Source: a virus. From it: a stretch of DNA of 36,181 nucleotides. Both the position numbers and the translations under genes were made by a program. A model generated the notes under the pieces. The model searched no databases. It was not told the DNA's origin and saw nothing but the letters and a program-made list of their open reading frames with translations. Position 1 is the first letter of the stretch. The number at the start of each line of letters is the position of its first letter. Below are positions 34,629 through 36,181 of the stretch, piece by piece. Where the stretch lies: positions 1-36,181 of IMG/VR virus record IMGVR_UViG_3300046534_000729; one strand, given 5' to 3'.

Positions 34629-34796
34629 CTATTCTCCCGTTAATTTGTTTTCGCGAAACTCAGCCAACTTATCGACCAGATATTGTTTTTCGTCTGGTGT
34701 TACGTCAGGTCGATAATAGACAAAGCCTTGGTCAGCTTTACGCTTTCGTAGTGCTTTGTTGTCTGCTGCTCTGGATTTTGGTTTATTTGTTTTCAT
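34629..34796 (-). CDS. Small basic protein, possible ribbon-helix-helix-like regulator (55 aa)
   Basis: 55 codons, ATG 34796 with SD-like AGGGTATG below leader hairpin copy 3. The N-terminal 20 residues are strongly basic (KPKSRAADNKALRKRKADQG), then FVYYRPDVTPDEKQYLVDKL. The RKRK-A-x-x-GF-V-x(4)-V-T-P pattern resembles short Arc/CopG-like or plasmid antitoxin-type DNA binders. Ends in GE, with TAG inside the next cassette. Function inferred only loosely. Confidence 0.6.
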   Translation of the reverse strand: MKTNKPKSRAADNKALRKRKADQGFVYYRPDVTPDEKQYLVDKLAEFRENKLTGE

Positions 34797-34822: not shown

Positions 34823-34879
34823 GGTTAAACTTATTAATCTGCTGGGGTTCTGGAGTTTATAATTAATAAAGTGCTTAGT

Positions 34880-35040
34880 TTGTGGCTACTGTGAGCAGGA
34901 AGGGATCGAACCAACGACCTTCCAGCTAAATGGTTATGTCAGGCTATAAACCCCTATATCACCAAAAGCACTGGACGCTCTCCCATCTGAGCTACTGCCC
35001 AGCCCCGCAACATGTATGGGGACGTTTACAGTAACCACAA
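34880..35040. repeat. 13-bp inverted repeat enclosing the tRNA-like RNA
   Basis: TTGTGGCTACTGT (34880-34892) and ACAGTAACCACAA (35028-35040) pair over 13 bp with one G.U in the RNA. The arm at 34892 abuts the tRNA-like 3' acceptor strand; on the other side 26 bases intervene, in which CCCC and GGGG (CCCCATACATGTTGCGGGG) form a small hairpin. The long stem would hold the whole domain. Confidence 0.65.
34892..35001 (-). ncRNA. tRNA-like RNA with a 45-nt anticodon loop
   Basis: On the minus strand: acceptor TGGGCAG (35001-34995) pairs fully with CTGCTCA (34898-34892); TA; D-arm GCTC-AGATGGGA-GAGC; anticodon-arm stem TCCAG (34975-34971) with CTGGA (34925-34921); variable loop AGGTC; T-loop TTCGATC. 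Both arms have the conserved tRNA bases. Two features are abnormal: the anticodon loop has 45 bases instead of 7, so no anticodon can be read, and the T-stem has two mismatches (GTTGG/CCTTC). It is a disrupted or intron-bearing tRNA, or a tRNA mimic. The surrounding 13-bp stem and a promoter upstream support expression as a stable RNA. Confidence 0.6.
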
Positions 35041-35087
35041 TCTAAACACTCTATTTCTTTCTGCCTTTTCGCTGTTTCAATACCCAC

Positions 35088-35116
35088 ATAGTATAGTATC
35101 GCGAGACACAGTGCAA
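35088..35116 (-). promoter_or_regulatory. Promoter for the tRNA-like RNA
   Basis: TTGCAC at 35116-35111, a 17-base spacer and TACTAT at 35093-35088 (TATACT at 35095-35090 lies 15 bases away and overlaps). No coding frame of size follows for 290 bases apart from the tRNA-like RNA, so the likely product is a structured RNA with an approx. 45-base leader. Confidence 0.5.
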
Positions 35117-35179: not shown

Positions 35180-35326
35180 TTATAGTAATTGTTTTTGATC
35201 TTTTGCTAAGTGCCAAGAGATGCGGATATTGCACTTTACGCAATATTTATAATTGAGAGTAGCCACCAGTGCTAAGTTGGTGTTTTTGCACTGTGGACAC
35301 TCTTTTGTGGTTTTATTAAGTGGCAA
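35180..35326 (-). CDS. Zinc-ribbon protein with upstream in-frame stop (48 aa)
   Basis: TTG start at 35326 (SD AAAAAGGCATAACC), 48 codons, TAA at 35180. CPQCKNTN at residues 10-17 and CVKCNIRI at 29-36 form a zinc ribbon, followed by WHLAKDQKQLL, the usual end of small phage zinc-ribbon proteins. The same frame extends upstream to ATG 35362 with SD GAGAGGACTGAAGCA, but codon 11 is TAA (35330-35332), two codons before the TTG. The original product was probably about 60 aa; now it is either restarted at TTG or inactive. Confidence 0.6.
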   Translation of the reverse strand: MPLNKTTKECPQCKNTNLALVATLNYKYCVKCNIRISWHLAKDQKQLL

Positions 35327-35329
35327 CGG

Positions 35330-35362
35330 TTATGCCTTTTTCTTCGTCGGTTTGACTACCAT
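35330..35362 (-). CDS. 10-codon leader frame of the zinc-ribbon gene
   Basis: ATG 35362 with a strong SD, then VVKPTKKKA and TAA. It is in the same frame as the zinc-ribbon coding sequence that restarts at TTG 35326. Probably the cut-off start of that gene (CAA to TAA change would suffice). Whether it functions as a coupling leader peptide cannot be decided here. Confidence 0.4.
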   Translation of the reverse strand: MVVKPTKKKA

Positions 35363-35366
35363 TGCT

Positions 35367-35606
35367 TCAGTCCTCTCTGGGTTGAAAGTTTAATATTAAG
35401 TTGTTGATAGCGGCGATTTGCCTTTCATCGCATTGTAAAAATATGTCTATTTGAGTAAGAACACCTATGTTTAAATGCTCTGGCTTTTTTACTTCTACTG
35501 TTGACCAACGCCATTTACAAGAAACGCATTCATACCGGCGGCGACGATAGCCAGCAAAAGGGCGCGAATCAACACATTTTGATTTTTCATGCGCGCACTT
35601 CTTCAT
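35367..35606 (-). CDS. NrdR-like zinc-ribbon protein (79 aa)
   Basis: The N-terminal 38 residues (CAHEKSKCVDSRPFAGYRRR, RYECVSCKWRWSTVEV) match the zinc ribbon of the ribonucleotide reductase regulator NrdR: C-x(n)-C, DSRP, RRRRYEC-x-x-C, RW-ST-E. The ATP-cone of NrdR is absent; instead there is a 40-residue helical tail. Short NrdR-ribbon proteins occur in many phages and are thought to bind DNA, but a role in nucleotide control is unproven. Start ATG 35606. Confidence 0.75.
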   Translation of the reverse strand: MKKCAHEKSKCVDSRPFAGYRRRRYECVSCKWRWSTVEVKKPEHLNIGVLTQIDIFLQCDERQIAAINNLILNFQPRED

Positions 35607-36027: not shown

Positions 36028-36181
36028 TTATAAGTCGCCGTAAATAACGTCAAGAATAAATTTAAACGACATTAAACCAATTATGACACCAGCAATAGAC
36101 CCGGGTAAAAAGAATATCTCAGGGGTTATTTGTAGATACCAACCCGCACTAGCAATTATTATATTTAAAAAAATCCCAATA
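36028..36181 (-). CDS. Small two-helix membrane protein, 3' part (gene crosses the contig joint)
   Basis: This is the 3' end of the 61-residue membrane protein that starts at 159. Bases 36055-36181 duplicate 1-127, so only 36028-36054 (the last eight codons, FILDVIYGDL region, and TAA) is new. It ends 22 bases before the next leftward gene (start 36006), whose SD is GAGGATTG. No function can be assigned. Confidence 0.75.
   Translation of the reverse strand, partial: IGIFLNIIIASAGWYLQITPEIFFLPGSIAGVIIGLMSFKFILDVIYGDL
36055..36181. repeat. Terminal direct repeat, copy 2 (circular contig overlap)
   Basis: Exact second copy of bases 1-127. The reading frame of the small membrane protein started at 159 continues through base 1 into 36054 and stops at 36028, which supports joining the ends at this repeat. 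Confidence 0.9.

Follow-up and report, generated by a model that had tools for sequence, protein, structure and literature searches.

A conserved tRNA-like phage RNA with a long outer clamp that very probably functions without decoding

Near one end of the virus record IMGVR_UViG_3300046534_000729 (36,181 bp, analysed at full length and hereinafter referred to as the window), an RNA with the arms of a tRNA was noticed in which the anticodon-type stem encloses 45 bases. The initial annotation offered three readings of this locus, namely a tRNA broken by insertion or fusion, a tRNA interrupted by a short intron of an unusual kind, and a tRNA mimic, and the question is which of them holds. The window has an exact direct terminal repeat of 127 bp (1-127 and 36055-36181) and therefore probably represents a complete genome. 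The gene content is phage-like, with genes for TerL, portal, major head protein, SSB, RecE-like exonuclease, DNA methyltransferase, and NinG. The RNA is encoded on the minus strand, inside a non-coding gap of ~380 bp with small co-directional ORFs on either side.

The segment 34861-35055 folded with z = -7.0, and none of 200 shuffles was as good. The tRNA likeness was also borne out by Infernal: cmscan placed the tRNA family at 34891-35001 on the minus strand with 35.6 bits, above the gathering score of 29 (E 1.4e-5 when 1 kb was searched, and 5e-4 when all families were run against the whole window). The features of the locus are as follows, with alignment A3 and model R1 described below.

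35180..35606, minus strand: two small upstream co-directional ORFs, of 48 aa (35180-35326) and 79 aa (35367-35606)
34865..35055, minus strand: whole RNA (clamp, P2 hairpin, tRNA-like domain); fold z -7.0, R1 score 169 bits, six-member covariation
35028..35055, minus strand: clamp 5' arm, AATAGAGTGTTTAGATTGTGGTTACTGT; 27 pairs and one mismatch with 34865-34892
35024..35027, minus strand: A-rich junction AAAC, after a conserved GU (alignment A3)
35002..35023, minus strand: 5'-side P2 hairpin, found in all six members; its loop, AUACAUGUUGC, contains the self-complementary ACAUGU (35010-35015)
34995..35000, minus strand: acceptor helix 5' strand GGGCAG, pairing with 34893-34898; 6 pairs, 5 with double changes
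34977..34992, minus strand: D-arm GCTC-AGATGGGA-GAGC (cmscan tRNA alignment)
34921..34975, minus strand: long arm replacing the anticodon arm, TCCAG (34971-34975) and CTGGA (34921-34925) around 45 nt
34899..34915, minus strand: T-arm GTTGG-TTCGATC-CCTTC with tandem U.U (cmscan; 5/5 paired in the other five members)
34893..34898, minus strand: acceptor helix 3' strand CTGCTC (fold and covariation)
34865..34892, minus strand: clamp 3' arm, with A34892 in the innermost pair beside the acceptor helix (U-A in all six members)
34629..34796, minus strand: next co-directional ORF, 55 aa, no assigned function, 68 nt past the clamp

The D-stem (4/4 pairs), T-loop, acceptor helix, 5-bp anticodon-type stem, and 45-base loop were all found as first described, as were the two T-stem mismatches (3/5 paired, tandem U.U). 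The centroid of the window fold favours a different pairing in the T-stem half, and the 45 nt of the long arm hold internal hairpins. The acceptor helix had been described as a perfect 7-bp stem; it is present, but comprises 6 bp in the folds, including one G.U. A72 could pair either with U1, as the seventh acceptor pair, or within the innermost clamp pair, and the folds place it in the clamp. The outer stem likewise exists, but consists of 27 pairs and one A.A mismatch rather than 13 bp. An extra hairpin between clamp and acceptor (P2, 35002-35023) was missing from the initial annotation, and no site was found at its candidate promoter (35088-35116), with 6 promoter sites in the region against 5.7 expected. 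The remark that a plain tRNA would not need the outer stem was supported. In a comparison with 677 ordinary viral tRNAs, the clamp score of the window was 52.4 against a mean of 17.6 (sd 3.7), and none of these tRNAs had a comparable clamp except one apparent false call in a repeat.

Relatives were sought in IMG/VR. A first scan, which required tRNA D- and T-arms separated by 52-82 nt, yielded at least 119 stretches, and narrower scans combined with a test for clamps beside the acceptor yielded the members, namely five further viral contigs of the same design (L319, L320, L375, L397, and L411). Two of the six members are 89% identical. Because IMG/VR was scanned by DNA patterns only, with the D- and T-arm letters largely fixed, the family size is a lower bound and the invariance of the D-arm and T-loop does not count as evidence. 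Two additional IMG/VR pattern scans, one based on TCAC and the other on the P2 motif, added nothing to the family. No counterpart of the window RNA was found among relatives by TerL or MCP (23 and 40 records searched for tRNAs, respectively), no member was found in 398 Pseudomonadota genomes in a weak search that scored only 7 candidates per genome, and nucleotide searches of INPHARED phages and PLSDB returned no copy.

All six members folded into a common architecture (z -7.0, -5.3, -8.0, -3.3, -4.6, and -6.4). The clamp has 19-27 pairs, of which the final two are always G-C and U-A. It is followed by an A-rich junction, the 5'-side P2 hairpin, and the 6-bp acceptor helix, which is stacked on the clamp along the 3' strand. 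The P2 loops resemble AUACUAGU or AUACAUGU. Every member has tRNA D- and T-arms and, where the anticodon arm would be, a long arm closed by a helix of at least 5 bp.

Covariation was assessed in A3, a MAFFT alignment of the six members in which the clamp, acceptor, D, and T stems were tested. Pairing was kept in 96.3% of pair cells, and double changes occurred in 18 of 27 pairs. None of 500 shuffles reached any of these measures, and sliding the partner by 1-3 columns reduced pairing to 35-48%. Within the clamp, 10 of the 12 inner pairs showed double changes. A model-fitted alignment, which leans towards its own model, gave double changes in 29/45 pairs; there the closing helix of the long arm was 100% paired, with double changes in all five pairs. 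Model R1, built from the window, L319, and L320, scored the three unseen members at 92.8-96.3 bits, compared with 57.5 bits for the best of ~384 other matches, mostly ordinary tRNAs. Across the six phage loci, compensating changes thus preserve the clamp, acceptor helix, P2, long arm, and T-stem. The initial annotation had named stems without covariation or conservation as a refutation of its reading, and this outcome did not occur. The features defining the family (GU/AC-ended clamp, P2, 6-bp acceptor helix, D-/T-arm, long arm, and covariation) were found together.

The six RNAs all exceed the gathering cut-off of the Rfam tRNA family (RF00005; 33.8-41.6 bits) and retain the tRNA elbow formed by the D- and T-arms, while a long hairpin substitutes for the anticodon arm. 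The 7-nt anticodon loop with U33 of RF00005 was absent, the loop of the window being 45 nt long. CCA is encoded in none of the six; the 3' side continues straight into the clamp, positions 72-73 are paired there in every member, and no single-stranded, CCA-ready 3' end is present. Nor did any join within a member yield a normal anticodon loop. Taken together, these three properties make a charged decoding tRNA unlikely. By comparative sequence evidence, the RNA is very probably a conserved functional RNA that does not decode, and the mimic branch of the initial annotation is supported.

We consider it rather probable that the window RNA is a tRNA-derived, non-decoding phage RNA, the first described of a small conserved family, which is excised by way of its clamp and acts through its elbow. 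No description of a clamped tRNA-like RNA was found in the open-access literature searched. The gene would be transcribed within an early operon, and host RNase III or a similar enzyme would cut the 19-27-bp clamp and free the RNA. RNase III typically cleaves helices of roughly two turns, and the clamp therefore probably serves to free the RNA and to protect its ends. The freed RNA would be stable, its paired ends resisting exonucleases. By its tRNA-like shape, the elbow would bind a host protein that grips tRNA elbows, as competitor, decoy, or recruiter; candidate targets include a processing or modifying enzyme, a synthetase, or a tRNA-cutting defence nuclease. That the elbow binds a host tRNA-gripping protein as competitor or decoy is a tentative proposal made by analogy. 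Equally speculative is the fullest form of this reading, a new family of early phage ncRNAs, stripped of the anticodon, with a clamp of 20 bp or more and a dimerising loop, that may tie up a tRNA-binding enzyme or a defence nuclease of the host.

The genomic setting is relevant to expression and to an alternative, in which the element has no life of its own and works in cis as a processing, stability, or translation-control signal for neighbouring genes. In the window, the RNA is co-directional with early genes such as those for SSB and NinG, and the upstream 48-aa and 79-aa ORFs are zinc-ribbon-like (CxxC pattern, judged by eye). Co-directional early genes accompany the RNA in other members too: a gene for an O-like replication protein lies downstream of it in L319, a replication protein gene is present in L375, and a Lar-like anti-restriction gene follows immediately in L397. 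L320 adjoins a tRNA cluster. This placement and orientation in early regions suggests early co-transcription. A cis element would equally be expected where the RNA lies, namely among early ORFs of the same direction and, in the inspected members, 19-336 nt ahead of the following ORF on its strand, and a long clamp would naturally be cut by RNase III. However, the downstream genes belong to no common family and lie at differing distances, and a complete tRNA elbow with a 6-bp acceptor helix exceeds the needs of a processing signal. We therefore hold a purely cis-acting role to be unlikely.

The P2 loops bear on a second alternative. A self-complementary hexamer was present in five of the six (ACUAGU three times, ACAUGU, and UCUAGA) at one aligned place; L375 has no palindrome, and the single loops are mostly not significant. 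On sequence grounds, these palindromes are suggestive of a kissing dimer, and loops that carry the hexamer may kiss to form one. The RNA could accordingly be imagined as a self-associating structural or packaging RNA, like the phage nanocage RNAs or the phi29 packaging RNA. The phage RNAs GOLLD and ROOL form homo-oligomers via kissing loops and are often encoded near tRNAs (PMC12286853), and the position of the L320 RNA beside a tRNA cluster is consistent with such a likeness. The clamped RNA resembles them as a phage-coded structured RNA with putative kissing-loop association. In contrast, GOLLD and ROOL are much larger (many GOLLD RNAs exceed 800 nt) and have unrelated structures, whereas the clamped RNA is tRNA-derived and, at ~190 nt, several times smaller than GOLLD. 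The palindromes allow dimers at most, several members lie in early operons, and the RNA shows no link to packaging genes. A structural or packaging role thus appears quite improbable.

Splicing to a working tRNA is a still weaker candidate, which we judge very unlikely. ARAGORN found no tRNA in default mode; in intron mode it called a tRNA-Lys interrupted by 38 intron bases, in which position 33 is A. The same collection does contain phage tRNAs with 40-57-nt inserts whose excision gives perfect anticodon arms. In an excision test, the best scores of the members were 5-9.5 against 12-13.5 for these true insert tRNAs, with shuffle P of 0.02-0.28 and 0.00, respectively; the window RNA is not of this kind. 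No cut of any member gives U33 with a perfect stem, and the short-intron reading of the initial annotation fails because a canonical anticodon arm could be restored in none of them. In addition, the long arm is base-paired between its two halves, and position 73 onward lies in the clamp in all six members, which lack CCA. To our knowledge, no self-splicing intron is this small.

A decayed tRNA pseudogene or a two-tRNA fusion in one phage, to which the two T-stem mismatches and the nearest relatives without a counterpart might point, is hardly credible, since five other contigs share the architecture with compensating changes, covariation across six loci rules out a one-off broken or fused tRNA, and a decaying gene would not retain 27 clamp pairs.

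Other identities were also tried and rejected. Among the families of Rfam 15, only tRNA was listed for the members at E ≤ 0.5-1. An alanine identity was considered because the joined sequence best matched tRNA-Ala and has G3.U70; it was dropped because the pair is absent from L375, L397, and L411 and because T70 had been a selection criterion for the first two relatives. A phage attachment site was dismissed because both tRNA halves are present, though diverged, and none of the window ORFs was noticed to encode an integrase. Transposon terminal inverted repeats were not supported either, as no target duplication was seen by eye at the clamp ends.

Compared with tRNA (RF00005), the tRNA-derived RNA proposed here has the D-arm, T-arm, acceptor helix, and order of parts in common, and differs in the long hairpin for the anticodon loop, the lack of CCA, the acceptor that runs into a 19-27-bp clamp, and the 5'-side hairpin. 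In tmRNA, a tRNA-like domain is retained and the anticodon arm is replaced. Unlike tmRNA, the clamped RNA has a true, intact D-stem and the normal order of parts and lacks both pseudoknots and a conserved tag; G3.U70, present in the window, is unconserved among members, and neither Rfam nor ARAGORN gave a tmRNA match. The tRNA-like structures of plant viruses are viral RNA that mimics tRNA (reviewed in PMC5723415). Those structures lie at genomic RNA 3' ends and are charged, whereas the clamped RNA is an internal early-region gene of a DNA phage without a CCA end. The T5 phage tRNAs, tRNA-Tyr and tRNA-Lys, counter tRNA-cutting defences (PMC11555353). They share with the clamped RNA a phage tRNA scaffold and a proposed role against host tRNA-targeting factors, but are ordinary decoding tRNAs with anticodons, while the clamped RNA cannot decode.

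Phage tRNA genes are usually read as codon supply or defence rescue. A conserved phage tRNA body without decoding points to the tRNA shape itself being used against, or with, host proteins. The clamp and the long arm together are easy recognition marks. Gene finders miss such loci or would call them broken tRNAs, and phage genomes may therefore contain further members that have escaped annotation.

Several other tRNA-related loci were met in the scans. Many viral tRNA genes (L004, L010, L012, L014, L020, L026, L029, L034, L062, L064, L068, L080, L083, L119, and others) are interrupted after nt 28-29, within the anticodon-stem 5' strand, by inserts of 40-57 nt; excision restores a perfect anticodon arm, often that of Asn (GTT) or Thr (TGT). 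Two motifs recurred in these inserts, a hairpin followed by ACAGCAA and a terminal GTTAT or GTTACTT, and the inserts resemble short tRNA introns of a kind not yet described. In seven further viral tRNA genes for Ile, His, Lys, and others (L047, L048, L071, L092, L382, L399, and L402), inserts near position 37/38 pair with the anticodon region in a bulge-helix-bulge-like manner, and L092 and L382 also have a clamp that directly prolongs the acceptor stem.

A relative of the window by major head protein (G062, L238) encodes a different tRNA-like RNA on the minus strand at ~1410-1660, upstream of an exonuclease-like gene (named by eye) in a recombination operon. Its clamp of 20 bp with one mismatch directly prolongs the acceptor, ACCA is encoded, and the anticodon arm is short; it was left out of the six-member family. 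In the TerL relative L124 (L145 1501-1578, record G004), a tRNA-Lys(TTT) 3' half with CCA, near an integrase-like fragment, is probably the attP of that phage. Finally, the record of L320 contains a tRNA-Leu-like gene lengthened to 124 nt, which adjoins a tRNA-Arg gene (L335, 1894-2017, minus strand).
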